A DNA stretch of 64,000 nt. Origin: Hymenobacter rubidus (lineage in GTDB: Bacteria; Bacteroidota; Bacteroidia; Cytophagales; Hymenobacteraceae). The first letter of the stretch is position 1; each line of letters starts with the position of its first letter. Below, piece by piece: positions 3,415 through 63,649 of the stretch. A program made the translations under genes and the position numbers. The stretch spans positions 1 to 64,000 of the forward strand of contig NZ_JAERQF010000018.1 in the NCBI RefSeq assembly GCF_016734815.1. The letters run 5' to 3'. The notes under the pieces were generated by a model that was not told the origin of the DNA, did not search any database, and saw nothing but the letters and a program-made list of their open reading frames with translations.

Positions 3415-3545
3415 CGGTGTCGGGGTTGGTATAGAGTAGCGCGAACGTTGTCGTTCGCGTCCCCGCGCCGCCAGCTCGTTCTGGCACGCGAACTGCGAAG
3501 TTCGCGCTACTGACCGTACGTACACTGACTTCGAAACGGCTGTAA
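3415..3545. repeat. B-family palindromic repeat, copy B1
   Basis: GTAGCGCGAACGTTGTCGTT with CGCGTCCCCGCGCC faces GGCACGCGAACTGCGAAGTT and CGCGCTAC. The outer arms (GGGGTTGGTATAGA, ACTTCGAAACGGC) are a worn version of the arms in B2 and B4. It fills most of the gap between the MDR gene start and the rhomboid gene stop. Confidence 0.75.
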
Positions 3546-5953: not shown

Positions 5954-5980
5954 GGGGTCTTTTAGGGATAGGCGACAAAA

Positions 5981-6086
5981 AGAACGTCATGCAGAGCGCA
6001 GCGAAGCATCTCGCGTGCGGCAGTAATTCAATCGATTGGATTATTGCCGCACGCGAGATGCTTCGCTGCGCTCTGCATGACGTTCT
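5981..6086. repeat. A-family palindromic repeat, copy A1
   Basis: AGAACGTCATGCAGAGCGCA then GCGAAGCATCTCGCGTGCGG pairs with CCGCACGCGAGATGCTTCGC then TGCGCTCTGCATGACGTTCT. The stem is over 40 bp with a short AT-rich loop. It lies just after the stop of the gene ending at 5953. Confidence 0.92.
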
Positions 6087-6147
6087 GTATTTACAGAAGT
6101 GGCTTGTCTTGATTTCTGCTTCAGCCCAGCCTCGCGGCCGAATGCCG

Positions 6148-12176: not shown

Positions 12177-12196
12177 AAAGAGAAGGACATTAGGCG

Positions 12197-12300
12197 GTCA
12201 TGCAGCGCGCAGCGAAGCAGCTTTACCGCTCAGCCCAATCCAATCGCCAGGATTACTGGTGGCGGGCAAGATGCTTCGCTGCGCGCTGCATGACGTTCTT
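12197..12300. repeat. A-family palindromic repeat, copy A2
   Basis: GGTCATGCAGCGCGCAGCGA and AGCA face AGATGCTTCGCTGCGCGCTG and CATGACGTTCTT. It starts 20 bp after the stop of the NagX-like gene. Confidence 0.88.
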
Positions 12301-12326
12301 TGTTCTTTTGGACAATAACCCATTCC

Positions 12327-15617: not shown

Positions 15618-18600
15618 TTATTTCCGCGCCGCTTCAATGGCCAGCTGCAGCAGCGACGTCCGCACGTTCATTTCCGCCAGCTTGTTGTTGCGCCGCGTCG
15701 GATGCACCCGGTTGGTGAGCAGCACCACCACCAGCTCCTTCTCCGGCTCCACCCAGAAGTAAGTACCGGTGAAACCGGTGTGCCCGTAGCTGCGCTGCGA
15801 GGCACTTTTGGCCGAATTCACGGCCGGGTTGGTAGCGGGCCGGTCGAAGGCCAGCCCGCGGCGGTTGTCGGGGCAAAACTGGCAGCGGGTCCAGTCGTCG
15901 AGCAGGGCTTTATCGAAGAGTTGCTGGCCCCCGTAGCGCCCGCCCCAGGCATAAGTTTGCACGAGTTTGGCCACGTCGTTGGCATCGCCAAACAGGCCGG
16001 CATGCCCCGAGAGGCCGCCGAGCAGCGCAGCCCCTTCGTCGTGCACGGTGCCGTGCAGCAGCTGCTTCCGGAAAGCCGAATCAACCTCCGTGGGCACGAT
16101 GCGCGCCAGCGGAAACCGGTTTGTGGGCCGATAGCCGAGCGTGGCCGCGCCCAGCGGCCGGTACACTTCTTTCTGCAAAAAAGCATCCATGGGCAGGCCC
16201 GTACGCGCCTTCACCAGCTCCGGGTAAAGAAAAAACGACAGGTCGGAATACACATAGCCCGGCTTAGCCGTCAGCGGCGACTCGCCAATCTGTTGGTAGA
16301 CGCGGCCCGGCAAGTCCCGGCGCGCCCACAGCCCGGCCGCCGCCGGCAGCGGGAAGCGGGCCGATGAGTCGGGCCGGAAATAGCGCCGGCGCAAGTCCCC
16401 GTTTTTCTTGCGGAAGGCCTGCCAAAACGGAATAAACGCCTGCAATCCTGCCTGATGCGCCAATACGTTGCGCAGCTTCAGACTGGCTTTATTCGTGCCG
16501 CGCAGAAAAGGAAAATAGCTCCCCAGCGTACTGTCCGGACTGAATTTATGGTCGGCTTCCAGCTTGAGCAGAGCCGGTGTAGCGGCCAGCATCTTGGTCA
16601 GGGAAGCCAGGTCGTAGAGGTCTTCGTTGGTAACCACGCGCGGCGTGGTTACCAACGAAGAATTAGGAATGAGGAATGAGGAATTTGCCAACAGCTTCTG
16701 CTTTGCAACAGCTTTCTTTTTTTTCAATTCCTCATTCTTCATTCCCAATTCCTCCTTGCGGGCAAAGCCCGCATAGGTTTGGTTGCCATAGCTTTTGCGC
16801 AGCACCACCGTGCCGCGCCGGGCAATGAGCACCTGCGCCCCCGGAAACGCCTGGGCTGCCAGCGCCCGGCCCACGAGGCTGTCGACGCGGGCTTCGAGGC
16901 GGCCGTCCATGCCCACGTCTTCGGGGGTGGCGTAGCGCAGGCGGAAGCGGCCGGCCGTGCGCAGCCCAAAGCCGCGCGGGTACTTATCCGATACCGTGAC
17001 CGGCAGCTTACCGGTGGCCGCCGTGCCGCCAAAAAGGACTTGAGCAGCCAGGCTCTGGGCATTCGCACTTTCCTGGTAGGCCAGGATAACGGCGGCGGCC
17101 CGGTCCAAATCGCGCACGCGGGCCACGGCATACGCCGAGCCGAACACGCTAAGCACGAGTTGCTGCCTTTGGTCTACCAGCTCGCGCAGCAGCATATTTT
17201 CCTCCGCCGAAATGCCGAAGCTGGTGGCCGGCAGGCGCCCCAGGCTTTGCAGCGAAACCAGGATGAGATTATAAGGCCTGAGCGCGGCGCGCAATGCCAG
17301 CAGCTCGTCCAGCGTCGGGGTGGCCGACGCATGGAAATGAGCGGCCGGCGCATAGTCAGCCACGGCTTTCTGAAAGTCCGTCGTGTCGCGGGGCGAGCCG
17401 CCGAGCACCAGCGTGGCCATGCGCAACGTGTCGAGGCGCTGGAGCGGCAGCAGGTTTTTCTGGTTGCGCAGCAGCGTGATGCTGAGCTCGGTGAGGCGGT
17501 GGCTGAGGTACTGGGCGTGGGGCCCGTTGAGGTCTTCGTAGAGGTTTTTGGTATCGATGGGCCGGTAGTGGCTCAGGCCCGCCCACTGCTTGAGGGCCAG
17601 CACGCGACGGCAGTGCTCGTCGATTTCCTTCTGCGAAATCCGGCCGCTGTCCACGGCGGCGCGCACCATACGCAGGGCCAGCGGAATGTTCTTACTGAAC
17701 TCCAGAATGTCGTTGCCAGCCATGATGGCGCGCACGTCGGCCTCGCCGGGCGGAAACTTGCTGATGACGCCGCGCATGTTCATGGCATCCGTGAAAATCA
17801 GGCCTTTAAAGCCCATTTCCTGCCGCAGCACGCCCGTGATGATGGGCCGCGAAAGCGTGCTCGGGCCCAGCACGGTGTCCATAGCGGGTACGTTGAGGTG
17901 GGCCACCATCACCCCGCCCAGCCCGCCGGCCATCAGGCTGCGGAAGGGCGGCAGTTCCAGCGTATCGAGCCGGCGGCGGTCGACGCGCACGGTGGGCAGC
18001 GAGAGGTGGGAGTCGGCGTCCACGTCGCCGTGGCCGGGAAAGTGCTTGGCCACGGCCAGAATGCCGGCGTCCTGCAGGCCGCGCATGTACTGGCGGCTGT
18101 CGCGGGCCACGGCGGCCGGGTTTTCGCCCCAGCTACGGAAGCCGATGACGGGGTTGGCGGGGTTGTTGTTCACATCGACCACCGGCGCGAAGTTGACGTG
18201 CATGCCCAGCCGCTTGAACTGGCGGGCAATTTCGCGGCCCATGTCGTAGAGCAGCGCCGTGTCGGTTTCGCCGCCCATGCTCATTTGGTACGGAAATTTC
18301 TCCACGCTATCCAGGCGCATGCCCACGCCCCACTCGCCATCCAGGGCCACCAGCAGCGGCACTTTGCTCTGGCTCTGGTAGCGGTTCAGCAGCTTGGCCT
18401 GCCGCACCGGCCCACCCTGAAAAAATATCAGCCCGCCAATGCCGTACTGCTTGATAAGGGTCGAAATCGAGTCTTCGTCGATGCGCTTGCGGTTGGAATA
18501 GGCCGCCACCATGAAGAGCTGCGCGGCCCGCTGGTCGGGCGTGAGGGCCCGCATCAGGCTATCGACCCACGGCGAGTGCAGGTAGCGCGTGAATGCCGGG

Positions 18601-18857
18601 GCGCCAGGCGGCACCGGTGGCGAATCGACTGGCCTTTTGCGAATAGCTGTGGGCCGGCGAGCAGAGACAATCGCAGGTTTCGCTTTATTTCTGGCAACGC
18701 CCATATGTTTAGGCTGGGTGGCCGGTTGGGGGTGCGCAAGTGCGGAGCCGGGTTGGGGGTGCGCAAGTGCGGAGCCGGGTCGGCGCTGCGCCCGTGTATG
18801 CGTAAGTGCGCCTGCAATGAGCAATACGCAAAGAAGGGGAATTTTAAGAGACGACAA
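15618..18857 (-). CDS. Bimodular GH3 (NagZ-like) and serine beta-lactamase-family hydrolase
   Basis: A secreted enzyme of about 1079 aa. The N-terminal half is GH3 of the beta-N-acetylhexosaminidase type: AKHFPGHGDVDADSH (about 271) carries the His/Asp pair and GLIFTDAMNMRGV (about 355) the nucleophile Asp. The C-terminal half is a class C beta-lactamase-like serine hydrolase: LASLTKMLA (SxxK near 750) and YSD. This two-domain form is common in Bacteroidota and probably acts on murein or its fragments. No ATG gives a signal peptide; TTG at 18857 does (core IPLLCVLLIAGAL), and a promoter-like TACTTTCG lies 22 bp upstream. Residues about 701-733 are an in-frame D repeat; a nine-residue duplication (PGSALAHPQ) lies near the N-terminus. 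Confidence 0.88.
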   Translation of the reverse strand: MSSLKIPLLCVLLIAGALTHTRAQRRPGSALAHPQPGSALAHPQPATQPKHMGVARNKAKPAIVSARRPTAIRKRPVDSPPVPPGAPAFTRYLHSPWVDSLMRALTPDQRAAQLFMVAAYSNRKRIDEDSISTLIKQYGIGGLIFFQGGPVRQAKLLNRYQSQSKVPLLVALDGEWGVGMRLDSVEKFPYQMSMGGETDTALLYDMGREIARQFKRLGMHVNFAPVVDVNNNPANPVIGFRSWGENPAAVARDSRQYMRGLQDAGILAVAKHFPGHGDVDADSHLSLPTVRVDRRRLDTLELPPFRSLMAGGLGGVMVAHLNVPAMDTVLGPSTLSRPIITGVLRQEMGFKGLIFTDAMNMRGVISKFPPGEADVRAIMAGNDILEFSKNIPLALRMVRAAVDSGRISQKEIDEHCRRVLALKQWAGLSHYRPIDTKNLYEDLNGPHAQYLSHRLTELSITLLRNQKNLLPLQRLDTLRMATLVLGGSPRDTTDFQKAVADYAPAAHFHASATPTLDELLALRAALRPYNLILVSLQSLGRLPATSFGISAEENMLLRELVDQRQQLVLSVFGSAYAVARVRDLDRAAAVILAYQESANAQSLAAQVLFGGTAATGKLPVTVSDKYPRGFGLRTAGRFRLRYATPEDVGMDGRLEARVDSLVGRALAAQAFPGAQVLIARRGTVVLRKSYGNQTYAGFARKEELGMKNEELKKKKAVAKQKLLANSSFLIPNSSLVTTPRVVTNEDLYDLASLTKMLAATPALLKLEADHKFSPDSTLGSYFPFLRGTNKASLKLRNVLAHQAGLQAFIPFWQAFRKKNGDLRRRYFRPDSSARFPLPAAAGLWARRDLPGRVYQQIGESPLTAKPGYVYSDLSFFLYPELVKARTGLPMDAFLQKEVYRPLGAATLGYRPTNRFPLARIVPTEVDSAFRKQLLHGTVHDEGAALLGGLSGHAGLFGDANDVAKLVQTYAWGGRYGGQQLFDKALLDDWTRCQFCPDNRRGLAFDRPATNPAVNSAKSASQRSYGHTGFTGTYFWVEPEKELVVVLLTNRVHPTRRNNKLAEMNVRTSLLQLAIEAARK
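16621..16661. repeat. Perfect 19-bp inverted repeat inside the GH3/beta-lactamase gene
   Basis: TCTTCGTTGGTAACCACGC and its exact reverse complement are separated by 3 bp. It encodes TTPRVVTNED at the edge of the beta-lactamase domain and touches the D element, so it may mark how that element arrived. Confidence 0.85.
16657..16755. repeat. D-family palindrome inserted in frame, copy D1
   Basis: GAATTAGGAATGAGGAATGA faces CAATTCCTCATTCTTCATTC, with a lysine-rich loop. On the coding (minus) strand it reads EELGMKNEEL, then a lysine/alanine linker, then NSSFLIPNSSL. It is AT-rich within a GC-rich gene and separates the GH3 and beta-lactamase domains. Confidence 0.88.
18724..18777. repeat. 27-bp tandem duplication in the GH3/beta-lactamase leader
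   Basis: Two exact copies of GGTTGGGGGTGCGCAAGTGC plus GGAGCCG in tandem encode the repeated peptide PGSALAHPQ just after the signal peptide. Confidence 0.85.
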
Positions 18858-18879
18858 GGACGGGGACCGGATGTTTGGA

Positions 18880-18887
18880 CGAAAGTA
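18880..18887 (-). promoter_or_regulatory. Candidate promoter -7 element for the GH3/beta-lactamase gene
   Basis: TACTTTCG on the minus strand, 22 bp before the proposed TTG start at 18857; it supports that start over the ATG at 19082. Confidence 0.4.
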
Positions 18888-18937
18888 GTGCGTGCCGCTA
18901 ATGCGTAATGCGAAAGCGAAGGGCGGTGCTAGCAAAG

Positions 18938-19018
18938 AAGCTGTTTTGAAAGTCGACCACCACCCGGTCGACCGCCTAGGGCGTTGGACCGGGCGGAACT
19001 GTCTTACTAAACAGCTGC
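18938..19018. repeat. C-family repeat, degenerate copy C3
   Basis: AGCTGTTTTGAAAGTCGACC opens and CGGAACTGTCTTACTAAACA with GCT closes an imperfect palindrome with CGGTCGACCGCC and GGGCGTTGGACCGGG inside. The outer AGCTGTTTA/TAAACAGCT arms also occur at C2 and C4. Confidence 0.65.
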
Positions 19019-19203
19019 TATGTAAACAATATGATACTTTACCAACCTTTCCTACTTGTAGTCTAAACGACTCCAACAGCAATTTTCACTATTTTGACAT
19101 TTCTCAATTCAATACATTGATTATCATCATTAAATTGAAAATTGGATTAATTCAAATTAATATTTTTTAATTAAATAATTTCATCTTTCTCACAATCCAT
19201 GTG
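19019..19203. other. AT-rich intergenic stretch
   Basis: This segment is strongly AT-rich (for example TTAATTCAAATTAATATTTT around 19148), in sharp contrast with the coding DNA on both sides. I see no gene. It probably holds upstream promoter sequences for the T9SS gene that follows. Confidence 0.6.
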
Positions 19204-21919: not shown

Positions 21920-22075
21920 AAGAAGTTGTTTAGGCCGTCGGTTCTGCTCGGTCCGCCGCCGTAGGCGTCCGACCGGTTGCCGCCCGAACGAGGCGCCAAC
22001 GACCGGTGACCGACGACCGGTCGGACGCCTACGCCGTCGGACCGGCAAGCAAGACAATTCCTAAATAGCTTCAAT
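21920..22075. repeat. C-family palindromic repeat, copy C2, with outer arms
   Basis: Core at about 21949-22044: CGGTCCGCCGCCGTAGGCGT and CCGACCGGTTGCCG face CGACCGGTCGGACGCCTACG and CCGTCGGACCG. Outer arms AAGTTGTTTAGG and CCTAAATAGCTT extend it. It is a GC-rich island inside an AT-rich gap. Confidence 0.85.
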
Positions 22076-25523: not shown

Positions 25524-25538
25524 TTGCCCAGGCCATTA

Positions 25539-25636
25539 AGAACGTCATGCTGAGCTTGTCGAAGCATCTCTCCCGCAATACTAAAATCAATTAGTTGCGC
25601 GGGAGAGATGCTTCGACAAGCTCAGCATGACGTTCT
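25539..25636. repeat. A-family palindromic repeat, copy A3
   Basis: AGAACGTCATGCTGAGCTTG with TCGAAGCATCTCTCCCGC pairs perfectly with GCGGGAGAGATGCTTCGACA and AGCTCAGCATGACGTTCT. It lies between the two DUF885 genes, 15 bp after the first stop. Confidence 0.93.
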
Positions 25637-25661
25637 GTTATGATAGAGTCATTTCAGACCA

Positions 25662-29169: not shown

Positions 29170-29350
29170 CAATCAGCGCGCAGCCAAGCATCTGGCGTGC
29201 CACCACTACAGCGGTTTCGGAGTCGGCATCCAGGCGCTGGAAGTAGCGCGAACTGCAAAGTTCGCGCTACGGTACCCCGACTCCGAAACCGCTCTAACTA
29301 TTGATTACTGTCTCAAGCGAGGTGCTTGGCTGCGCGCTGCATGACGTTCT
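29170..29350. repeat. A-family repeat (A4) interrupted by a B-family repeat
   Basis: The A arms are AGCGCGCAGCCAAGCATCT (29175-29193) and GGTGCTTGGCTGCGCGCTGC with ATGACGTTCT (29321-29350). A complete B element lies between them, so this is a nested insertion. The outermost left A arm has been lost. Confidence 0.85.
29211..29292. repeat. B-family palindromic repeat, copy B2 (nested)
   Basis: GCGGTTTCGGAGTCGGCATC opens and CCCCGACTCCGAAACCGC closes; inside, GTAGCGCGAACTGCAAAGTT continues into CGCGCTAC. The 82-bp palindrome sits in the loop of A4. Confidence 0.9.
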
Positions 29351-31680: not shown

Positions 31681-31755
31681 GTCGGTATCCAGTAGCGCGA
31701 ACTGTGTAGTTCGCGCTACTTCCAGCGCCTGTATACCAACTCCGAAACTGCTTTA
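31681..31755. repeat. B-family repeat, copy B3
   Basis: GTCGGTATCCAGTAGCGCGA with ACTGTGTAGTTCGCGCTACT is followed by the closing arm CCAACTCCGAAACTGCTTTA. The opening GCGGTTTCGGA arm is missing, so the copy is partial. It lies 5 bp after the dcp stop codon. Confidence 0.8.
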
Positions 31756-36447: not shown

Positions 36448-37608
36448 ATGTCTGATTCTGACGCCCCCCAACCTTCCCGTTTTCGCCGCGCCCTAGGGGC
36501 GGTAGGCCGGGCCGCCCTGCTGCCCGTGCGCGGCGCCGACTACCTTGTGCGCACCGGCAAGGCCCACCAGCACTTCTTTTTGCCGGTGCTCAACGGGGTC
36601 CTGGGCGACCAGCTGGCCGCCCGTTTCGACCCGCGTGCCATTCAGATGAGCTTCCGGCGCGGCGGCCACGACGTGGCCGTGGCCGACCTGCGTCTCAGCG
36701 AGCCCCACCAAAAGACGGCGGTGTTTGTGCACGGCCTGATGGGCGACGAGCTTATCTGGCAAACCGGTTTTCAGGACGCGCCGGGCAGCCGCCGCTACGG
36801 CCCCCGCCTGGCCGAGGAAACCCACATTCGGGCCCTCTACCTGCGCTTCAACTCCGGCCTGCACCTCTCCGAAAACGGCCGCGAGCTCAGCCGTCTGCTC
36901 ACCGAGTTGGTCGAAACCTACCCCGACGCCATCGGCGAGCTGGTGCTGGTGGGCCATAGCATGGGCGGGCTGATTATTCGCTCGGCGGGGCATTACGCTG
37001 CGCTTAATGAAGAATTAAGAATGAAGAATGAGGAATTATCCAGCGAAGCAAACCGGCCAGCCACCGATAATTCTTCATTCTTCATTCCTCATTCTTCATT
37101 AAAAAAAGCGCCCTGGCTGGCGCACCTGCGCTCGGTATTCCTGCTGGGCACGCCCAACGACGGCTCCTGGCTGGAGCAAAACTCCTTCCTGACGGCCCGC
37201 CTGCTGGAGCGCATCAACCTGTTTCCCACGCGGTTTCTGAGCAAGGCACTCAACCAGCGCAGCAACGGCATCAAGGATTTGCGCTACTCCATTCTGGTAG
37301 ACGAGGACTGGCAGGATGCCCACGCCCACGACCTCACACCGCCGCGCATGCCGGTGCCGCCGCTACCGGGCGTGCAGTACCACATTCTAATGGGCGCGTG
37401 GCTGCGGAGCACCCGGCCCTCGGCCTTGCGCGAATACTTCGGCGACGGGCTGGTGGGCAAGGGTAGCGCCCGCGGCCACGCCACTTTCGGCGATGAGGCG
37501 GCTTTGCCGGCGGGCGCCAGCGTGCGCACGGCCGTGTTCAGCCAGCAGCACCATGGCGGCTTGCTCACGCATCCGGAGGTGTTTCAGTACCTGAAGCAGT
37601 GGACGTGA
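36448..37608 (+). CDS. Alpha/beta hydrolase (PGAP1/lipase-like) with an in-frame palindromic insertion
   Basis: A 386-aa cytoplasmic esterase or lipase-like protein. KTAVFVHGLMGDELIW (oxyanion loop), LVLVGHSMGGLIIR (nucleophile elbow, Ser171) and the C-terminal QQHHGGLLTHPEVF (catalytic His) are visible; SVFLLGTPNDGSWLE is typical of PGAP1-like and triacylglycerol lipase-like families. The substrate is unknown. Residues about 186-218 (NEELRMKNEEL, linker, NSSFFIPHSSL) are not part of the fold: they are a D-family palindrome that keeps the frame, placed between the nucleophile helix and the next strand. No signal peptide is seen. Confidence 0.86.
   Translation: MSDSDAPQPSRFRRALGAVGRAALLPVRGADYLVRTGKAHQHFFLPVLNGVLGDQLAARFDPRAIQMSFRRGGHDVAVADLRLSEPHQKTAVFVHGLMGDELIWQTGFQDAPGSRRYGPRLAEETHIRALYLRFNSGLHLSENGRELSRLLTELVETYPDAIGELVLVGHSMGGLIIRSAGHYAALNEELRMKNEELSSEANRPATDNSSFFIPHSSLKKAPWLAHLRSVFLLGTPNDGSWLEQNSFLTARLLERINLFPTRFLSKALNQRSNGIKDLRYSILVDEDWQDAHAHDLTPPRMPVPPLPGVQYHILMGAWLRSTRPSALREYFGDGLVGKGSARGHATFGDEAALPAGASVRTAVFSQQHHGGLLTHPEVFQYLKQWT
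37004..37102. repeat. D-family palindrome inserted in frame, copy D2
   Basis: A 37-bp arm starting TTAATGAAGAATTAAGAATG (37004-37040) faces one starting GATAATTCTTCATTCTTCAT (37066-37102), around a 25-bp GC-richer loop. The encoded peptide has the same EEL-R/G-MKNEEL and NSSF-IP-SSL halves as D1. Confidence 0.92.
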
Positions 37609-39269: not shown

Positions 39270-39307
39270 TATGGATAGTTTCAGAAACCCAAAACGTCAT
39301 GCTGAGC

Positions 39308-39404
39308 AGACCGTCATGCTGAGCTTGTCGAAGCATCTCTACCGCGAAGAGTAATCATTTACTATTGCGGTAGAGATGCTTCGACAAGCTCAGCATGACG
39401 GTCT
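39308..39404. repeat. A-family palindromic repeat, copy A5
   Basis: AGACCGTCATGCTGAGCTTG with TCGAAGCATCTCTACCGC pairs with GCGGTAGAGATGCTTCGACA and AGCTCAGCATGACGGTCT. A further AACGTCATGCTGAGCAGA scrap precedes it at 39293. It lies between convergent genes. Confidence 0.92.
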
Positions 39405-39431
39405 GCTGTACTGCCGCAACACATCCTAATC

Positions 39432-40579: not shown

Positions 40580-40587
40580 CCAAAGTA
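40580..40587 (-). promoter_or_regulatory. Candidate promoter -7 element for the epimerase
   Basis: TACTTTGG on the minus strand, 32 bp before the ATG at 40547. It overlaps the start of a B half repeat. Confidence 0.3.
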
Positions 40588-40779
40588 GCGCGGACTTTGC
40601 AGTCCGCGTCGCCGGCGGCCAGTTGAAGGACCGGATTAGAGCGGTTTCGGAGTCGGTGTACCGTAGCGCGAACTTTGCAGTTCGCGTCCCCGCGCCGTCT
40701 TATCGAAGCGACTGGCGCGGGGATGCGAACTACAAAGTTCGCGATACTTCCAGCGCCTGGATGCCGACTCCGAAACCGC
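40585..40779. repeat. B-family repeats: half copy followed by full copy B4
   Basis: A half copy (GTAGCGCGGACTTTGCAGTC at 40585) is followed by the full 139-bp palindrome at 40641-40779: GCGGTTTCGGAGTCGGTGTA and GTAGCGCGAACTTTGCAGTT with CCCCGCGCC face GGCGCGGGGATGCG, CAAAGTTCGCGATAC and CCGACTCCGAAACCGC. Confidence 0.9.
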
Positions 40780-40797
40780 TGTGGGAAGTCAGCCTCC

Positions 40798-40894
40798 CCG
40801 GGCCGACGCCCCAGGCGTCCGACCGGTTGCCGCTAGAACGACTCCCAAACGACCGTCGACCGACAACCGGTTGGACGCCAGGGCGTCGGCCCGG
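40798..40894. repeat. C-family palindromic repeat, copy C4
   Basis: CCGGGCCGACGCCCCAGGCG and TCCGACCGGTTGCCG face CGACAACCGGTTGGACGCCA and GGGCGTCGGCCCGG. It is 97 bp, the same length as C1, and lies 18 bp after B4. The outer arm CCTAAACAGCTTC follows at 40909. Confidence 0.88.
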
Positions 40895-47851: not shown

Positions 47852-47874
47852 CTTTTTTTGCACAACAATACAGA

Positions 47875-47978
47875 AGTACGTCATGCAGAGCGCAGCGAAG
47901 CATCTCGCATGTGGTAGTAACTCAATCAAAGATTACTATGGCACGCGAGATGCTTCGCTGCGCTCTGCATGACGTTCT
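47875..47978. repeat. A-family palindromic repeat, copy A6
   Basis: AGTACGTCATGCAGAGCGCA and GCGAAGCATCTCGCATG pair with ACGCGAGATGCTTCGCTGCG and CTCTGCATGACGTTCT. It starts 24 bp after the stop of the GT-like gene. Confidence 0.92.
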
Positions 47979-48021
47979 TGTTCTGAATTATGACTAAGCA
48001 GCACCAGAAACCAACAGCCAT

Positions 48022-56127: not shown

Positions 56128-56147
56128 TAATTCTCTATACACTGGCG

Positions 56148-56235
56148 GTCATGCAGAGCGCAGCGAAGCATCTTTACCGCAGCGGTAATCTGATTTACTT
56201 CCGAGGTAAAGATGCTTCGCTGCGCTCTGCATGAC
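56148..56235. repeat. A-family palindromic repeat, copy A7
   Basis: GTCATGCAGAGCGCAGCGAA and GCATCTTTACC pair with GGTAAAGATGCTTCGCTGCG and CTCTGCATGAC. It starts 20 bp after the DUF1080 stop and separates it from the next gene of the cassette. Confidence 0.9.
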
Positions 56236-56287
56236 TGCCTTTGAGCAGGCCCTAACCAACCATCCTCATACTCCAACCAGAATTCCC

Positions 56288-63502: not shown

Positions 63503-63530
63503 GGGAATAGGGAATAGGGAATAGGGAATA
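63503..63530. repeat. Four tandem copies of GGGAATA
   Basis: An exact 4 x 7-bp microsatellite begins 1 bp after the ggt stop codon, just before repeat A8. Copy number is likely to vary between strains. Confidence 0.85.
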
Positions 63531-63533
63531 AAA

Positions 63534-63629
63534 AGAACGTCATGCTGAGCTTGTCGAAGCATCTCTATTGCAATAGTAAATAATTACTTGCGCAGTAGAG
63601 ATGCCTCGACAAGCTCAGCATGACATTCT
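63534..63629. repeat. A-family palindromic repeat, copy A8
   Basis: AGAACGTCATGCTGAGCTTG and TCGAAGCATCTCTA pair with TAGAGATGCCTCGACAAGCT and CAGCATGACATTCT, around an AT-rich loop. It lies between convergent genes. Confidence 0.9.
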
Positions 63630-63649
63630 TTTTAGAATCTTTTGCTTTT

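Follow-up and report, generated by a model that had tools for sequence, protein, structure and literature searches.

How does a palindrome come to lie inside an enzyme gene without breaking its reading frame, and to what kind of element does it belong? We address this question for an alpha/beta hydrolase gene of Hymenobacter rubidus, found in a 64,000-nucleotide stretch of DNA (hereafter, the window) that corresponds to contig 9 of the 5.49-Mb, 87-contig genome G000. The initial annotation of this stretch likened the palindrome to the in-frame elements known from Rickettsia (RPE). Here, we compare it with its copies in the genome, with orthologous loops in other Hymenobacter, and with relatives outside the genus.

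The hydrolase palindrome and its orthologous loops

The palindrome is 99 bp long, with 37-nt arms that lie 25 nt apart and are 92% complementary. Each arm consists of four heptads of the form AATKARG, a sequence type, or colour, that we call A. The element probably extends leftward beyond the 99 bp to include the end motif ACGCTGCGCTT. As RNA, it folds at -51.7 kcal/mol, compared with -20.2 ± 3.4 for 200 dinucleotide shuffles (z -9.2), none of which folds as well. The period-7 and inverted-repeat scores of this linker both lie at the floor of 100 codon shuffles. The initial annotation placed the palindrome in frame within the hydrolase gene, and the open reading frame is indeed free of stops across the insert (...GHSMGGLIIRSAGHYAALNEELRMKNEELSSEANRPATDNSSFFIPHSSLKKAPWLAHLRSV...). 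The peptides that it assigned to the palindrome (EEL(R)MKNEEL and NSSFFIPHSSL) are likewise encoded there (Table 1).

Table 1. Positions of features in the window.
Feature	Position	Strand	Remarks
Host gene, alpha/beta hydrolase	36448..37608	+	386 aa including insert; PF12697, weaker DUF676; orthologue alignment
Left end motif ACGCTGCGCTT	36995..37005	+	common to many copies and to left end of A-colour IVP element
Left arm	37004..37040	+	heptads AATGAAG AATTAAG AATGAAG AATGAGG, then AATTAT; codes NEELRMKNEEL
Spacer	37041..37065	+	25 nt; other copies have different spacers
Right arm	37066..37102	+	inverted heptads; codes NSSFFIPHSSL
Second host gene, GH3 plus beta-lactamase	15618..19082	-	Pfam Glyco_hydro_3 and Beta-lactamase
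Second in-frame colour-A copy	16654..16757	-	KEELGMKNEEL...NSSFLIPNSSL; inside ORF 15618-19082
Second palindrome family	1646-1677, 5978-6092, 12193-12305, 25538-25642, 39305-39410, 47874-47984, 56142-56246, 63529-63635		CGTCATGCTGAGC..GAAGCATCTC

Named relatives of the host protein, at 53–61% identity, come from Hymenobacter and Solirubrum. A structure model (mean pLDDT 60.7, and below 50 across the insert region, 193–219) is too weak to indicate more than alpha/beta hydrolase identity. A search of Rfam gave no match near the gathering score; we take the scores for mir-577 (30.1 of 100 bits) and SECIS_5 (18.6 of 50) as chance. On the mRNA strand, paired mismatches are A-C in 33 cases and G-U in 16. 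Since G-U is not in excess over A-C, nothing indicates that the hairpin is maintained in the mRNA, and we reject RNA-level selection on it.

Hydrolase orthologues were found in 38 of the 59 genomes searched. No conserved, non-repetitive sequence occupies the site; it is hypervariable, short in outgroups and filled with arrays of other colours in sister species. The linker measures 15 nt in the outgroups G049 and G056 and 24–33 nt in four members of the genus, G001, G002, G010 and G031; the others are heptad arrays whose colour differs by species. These are AATKARG in G000, G021 and G024; AGTKAAR in G011, G028, G023, G012 and G035; ARTGAGC in G033; AGTTGTC in G013; and GTTTTTG-type in G006 and G016. 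In Hymenobacter rigui the linker is of the AGTTGTC form, and in an uncultured Hymenobacter it is of a GGTGAGG form; G013 and G017 have linkers identical to those of H. rigui and H. persicinus. EgtB linkers behave like those of the hydrolase, with the left edge at about the same codon in most filled species. The PurH linker is of colour A in G000 only and of other colours in G016, G026, G029, G030, G025 and G035; in G016, G026, G029 and G025 it is a tandem array without a palindrome. In a three-protein tree the PurH insert is private to G000; the five genomes closest to it have retained a GC-rich linker of 51 bp. In both PurH and EgtB the insert replaces the native linker rather than adding to its length, and the orthologous linkers compared include no clean empty/filled pair.

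The period-7 signal lies at the codon-shuffle floor in 17/35 hydrolase, 8/30 EgtB and 9/30 PurH linkers, where about 1 of the 95 would be expected; the inverted-repeat score does so in 11, 5 and 2 of them, respectively. All linkers keep the frame except that of the broken hydrolase gene of G005 (L091), which was excluded, so that 35 hydrolase linkers were scored; seven genomes of the genus for EgtB, and seven for PurH, yielded no locus and were left out.

Linkers usually carry a colour that is abundant in their own genome. We counted four colours genome-wide in 59 genomes and compared linker colour with abundance, allowing one mismatch; one-sided Mann-Whitney tests, which ignore the shared ancestry of the genomes, gave p values of 0.002 (A), 0.001 (B), 0.004 (E) and 0.002 (F). 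TGTTAGC, for example, has 99 matches in G016, 89 in G026 and 64 in G029 (median 0), and ARTGAGC has 104 in G033. There are exceptions: G011 is dominated by colour A (326 matches versus 14), yet its hydrolase linker is of colour B, and G027 has an A-like linker with a single A match genome-wide. Copies of one colour can number dozens to hundreds in one genome and be few in a sister species.

Copies in the H. rubidus genome and beyond the genus

In G000, the two-heptad pattern AATKARGAATKARG has 314 matches (166 + 148); a reversed control has none. Our census comprises the sites among the matches listed (100 of 314) and those from a similarity search, which used a coding copy as its query and so favours coding copies; all copy counts are lower bounds. 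At least 76 array clusters were seen among the sites fetched, 52 of them palindromic, with arms on both strands; the 24 with arms on one strand only were left out of the counts of palindromic copies. The 52 palindromic copies among the matches listed span 53–166 bp, and at least 13 lie in frame in genes, as judged by whether the frame stays open and by codon usage on either side. Among pattern matches on contigs C1–C15, the part of the census without query bias, 7/26 sites are coding (hand count).

All 13 coding copies read alike, as NEELxMKNEEL, a spacer and NSSFLIPHSSL. They include the copy in the GH3/beta-lactamase gene, in which the initial annotation had already recognized the same peptide halves (Table 1). 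The left arm has only one stop-free frame, which requires T in the second heptad, and 31/39 non-coding copies have no open frame at all (hand count). The core is 2 mod 3 in length in 12/13 coding copies, compared with 10/39 others (hand count), and exactly 77 bp in 8/13 compared with 2/39. Spacers are arbitrary among copies, and many copies terminate in ACGCTKCGCTT beside the arm.

The host genes of the coding copies encode ordinary enzymes. By Pfam they are a PD-(D/E)XK nuclease, GH31, a D-Ala ligase fusion, HrpB, methylmalonyl-CoA mutase, an E1/transketolase fusion, an EgtB-like protein (DinB_2 + FGE-sulfatase), AIR synthase, a bifunctional PBP, PurH, a glycosyltransferase 9, the GH3/beta-lactamase and the window hydrolase. 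The insert falls between Pfam domains in five hosts (the nuclease protein, GH31, HrpB, the E1 fusion and EgtB) and, as a loop, within the span of a domain in the other eight. The insert is presumably translated and the enlarged enzyme made and tolerated.

Several other repeats were noted. Heptad arrays stand at contig ends of G000 (the end of C3, where eleven AATGAGG units close the contig, the start of C15 and the end of C2), positions at which assembly may be interrupted and copies may be missed from the counts. At L098 (G011:C248), a response regulator gene with an A-colour palindrome of its own has upstream of it a long tandem array of heptads in another colour, open in several frames. At least eight intergenic places in the window hold palindromes of a second family, unrelated to the first (Table 1); elsewhere in G000, copies of this second family also lie between heptad arms (L078:3000-3240, L047:4310-4550). 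A third family, AGTAGCGCGAACT..AGTTCGCGCTAC, has seven copies (window positions 3435-3510, 29242-29270, 31691-31719 and 40584-40747). An 86-nt direct repeat, 81% identical and rich in a GACCGG motif, is found at 21944-22029 and 40794-40879 of the window.

Outside the genus, a search of a plasmid collection matched carA of Bacteroides finegoldii, which has NEELRMKNEEF and NSSFFIPHSSL in two successive loops, separated by about 30 native residues. The carA gene of Parabacteroides distasonis has the same two loops filled in another colour. These arms stand around native residues, which shows that arms can flank native coding sequence. The carA records are labelled plasmids and look like pieces of chromosome. 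The carA genes of Phocaeicola massiliensis and G294 have no insert; G294 was the one close Bacteroides relative drawn in a sample of 296 Bacteroidota genomes, and the CarA alignment has six rows, those that passed the filter among the first 13 of 30 loci fetched. A heptad probe found no match in a phage collection, and IVP is present in 2 of 50,697 phage records.

IVP genes between inverted heptad arrays

One pair of A-colour arms in G000 (C44, ~180.3-180.9 kb) encloses a complete open reading frame, which starts inside the left arm (MKNEEL...) and matches PF05635, 23S_rRNA_IVP (23S rRNA intervening-sequence protein, IVP), with an E value of 4.5e-26. At its left end, this element has the ACGCTGCGCTC motif found in the small copies. 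Its right arm (L079:10815-10910) runs into the beginning of the following gene, where it would code for a portion of the N-terminal hydrophobic stretch of that gene's product (LLLLAILILHSSFFIPHSLKAQDY).

We assembled 29 IVP loci: every plasmid record encoding a relative (25 in number), and all four IVP genes found in 2.06 Mb of Hymenobacter DNA. An inverted flank match with a score of at least 15 is present at 26/29 of these loci, which span five phyla, compared with 12/473 control ORFs (1/76 from plasmids, 11/397 from Hymenobacter). The best repeat lag is 7, likewise in 26/29. Arm colours include AATTCGC in Nostoc, GATTAGT in Bernardetia, AAATTCA in Aulosira, AAATCGT in Planktothrix and AATTAGG/AATGAGG in Monoglobus. 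An IVP element of the same colour as small copies in the same genome was found for A in G000 only; the other three IVP loci in the sampled Hymenobacter DNA have different arms, one with period 9. A blind scan of the 2.06 Mb returned 26 inverted heptad pairs, one of which encloses an IVP gene at that stringency.

IVP genes were also seen inside or beside defence operons (L249, L250, L255, L258-L260, L368, L369, L371). They occupy the cas2/cas1 gap, the HsdS/HsdR gap, positions after drmD and before cas1, and a place between DUF1156 and Swt1/HEPN genes.

IVP is the gene of the 23S rRNA intervening sequence (IVS), in which a stem of inverted repeats surrounds a PF05635 gene; according to the accessible part of the source, this stem is excised by RNase III and has been proposed to be mobile, a longer stem-loop replaces the native loop, and the IVP protein is a pentamer (PMC4990558). 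The window element and the IVP loci share with it terminal inverted repeats that form a stem. The window copy differs in lying in a protein gene rather than in 23S rRNA, and its 25-nt spacer has no IVP/S23 ORF, which its like-armed relatives do have; we therefore do not file it as an IVS. The Hymenobacter elements differ further in that they are dispersed, have heptad-array arms and, in their gene-less form, enter coding sequence.

A probable origin of the coding palindromes

The flank anatomy of IVP genes and the known IVS stem-loops around the same gene are most simply explained together if the small palindromes are relatives of IVP elements that have no gene. We put a probability of about 0.68 on the view that the window palindrome derives from an IVP (IVS-type) element, of which it would be an ORF-less and MITE-like form, and that it is one of many dispersed hairpins with heptad-array arms. 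The ORF-bearing relatives would be IVP (PF05635, S23) genes between inverted heptad arrays, that is, IVS-type elements outside rRNA. Hairpin copies would land everywhere in the genome, and those that survive within genes would combine a tolerant loop, a length that is a multiple of three and the single open reading of the heptad arms. Limited to that one reading, the arms of surviving copies would be translated as NEELxMKNEEL and NSSFLIPHSSL, and reuse of an element colour within a species would cause orthologous loops to differ in colour between species.

The distribution of colours suggests that the hairpins move, being copied between sites, and IVP may act as their mover or helper. It would probably bind the hairpin as RNA or single-stranded DNA, and a hairpin RNA or single strand may be the intermediate. 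To our knowledge, IVP is not a known transposase. It bears a likeness to Avd of diversity-generating retroelements.

An unlikely alternative, although one with evidence in its favour, is that nothing moves. Arrays would arise in place by replication slippage in linkers under low constraint, fold-back template switching would make one arm from the other, and only in-frame outcomes would survive. Tandem arrays without a palindrome, such as the eleven AATGAGG units at a contig end and the four PurH linkers noted above, are consistent with this, as are the arbitrary spacers; arms in two separate carA loops, in both B. finegoldii and P. distasonis, are easier to obtain by local copying than by insertion of one block. 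However, the abundance of same-colour copies in one genome and their scarcity in its sister require copying between sites, as do the common end motif and the colours that match between unrelated genes. Once in place, the arms may well be remodelled by local slippage and fold-back copying, and carA favours some local process.

Improbable, in our estimation, is that the palindrome is an ordinary MITE derived from a DDE-type insertion sequence and IVP a mere passenger. The small copies do have features of a MITE: they are short, have inverted ends and no coding of their own, are present in many copies, and are in many cases intergenic. Yet a non-systematic search turned up no parental insertion sequence bearing arms of this kind, the aligned copy ends have no evident target-site duplication and the orthologous linkers offer no close empty site, and the recurrent gene between arms, in five phyla, is IVP.

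Less probable still, and rejected here, is movement by a Y1 transposase (RAYT) as a REP-type palindrome. REPs are dispersed palindromes and the genome has a Y1_Tnp gene, but this sole gene (L063:1834-2629) is flanked by its own, different GC-rich REPs (TGCCGCCCCGCTGGGGCTT), with no A-colour copy within ~2 kb; the palindromes have no known transposase partner. Nor do Y1 counts track heptad counts across genomes: a single weak Y1 match (3.2e-4) stands against 326 A matches in G011, and G008 has none. Removal or bypass of the insert at the RNA level, so that it is absent from the protein, is scarcely credible, even though the strand folds into a strong hairpin and RNase III cuts out 23S rRNA IVS stems (PMC4990558, accessible part), since a removed insert would need no frame and 13/13 coding copies are in frame and stop-free, while 31/39 others have no open frame.

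How, then, does a putative derivative of IVP elements compare with palindromes and repeats described before? RPEs are described, in the available part of one account, as short palindromes that place one conserved peptide in frame in unrelated genes (PMC10969869). The initial annotation's parallel holds as to behaviour: the 99-bp window element, close to the rough 100–150 bp of RPEs, has many copies, and at least 13 of the 52 palindromic ones encode the same peptide in frame in unrelated genes. Its treatment of these copies as one family does not hold, given arms that are 7-nt arrays of many colours and an arbitrary spacer. The elements also come from another phylum than RPEs, and physically they are nearest to the inverted arrays beside IVP genes rather than to anything known to be related to RPE. 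We therefore call the elements RPE-like and not RPE, a comparison made by description and not by sequence.

Bacterial heptamer repeats have been seen as well. STRR occurs inside rnpB. In the accessible portions of two reports, repeats with 7-nt units (TAACTGA; GGGAATC; cyanobacterial STRR) are described from Cyanobacteria and some Bacteroidetes, often adjoining start or stop codons (PMC4679880, PMC4692102). Unlike the present elements, those stressed there are intergenic direct repeats, and the same portions make no link to IVP. More broadly, in the accessible parts of the open-licence literature we found no account that connects heptamer arrays with IVP genes, and none of in-frame palindromes from Hymenobacter.

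More tentatively, and at somewhat less than even odds, IVP genes with inverted heptad arms may constitute a class of mobile elements that is widespread, present in no fewer than five phyla and as yet unnamed, with the known heptamer repeats as their arms. Gene-less derivatives would spread through genomes, each species having its own colours, and those of Bacteroidota would time and again remodel the loops of housekeeping enzymes without loss of frame, perhaps moving by way of a hairpin RNA with help from the IVP pentamer. Such a class would unite three old puzzles: the nature of heptamer repeats, the spread of IVSs and the role of the IVP/S23 protein. The Hymenobacter copies extend protein-coding palindromes well beyond Rickettsia, to free-living Bacteroidota, where the same protein loop is refilled with different repeat DNA, species by species.
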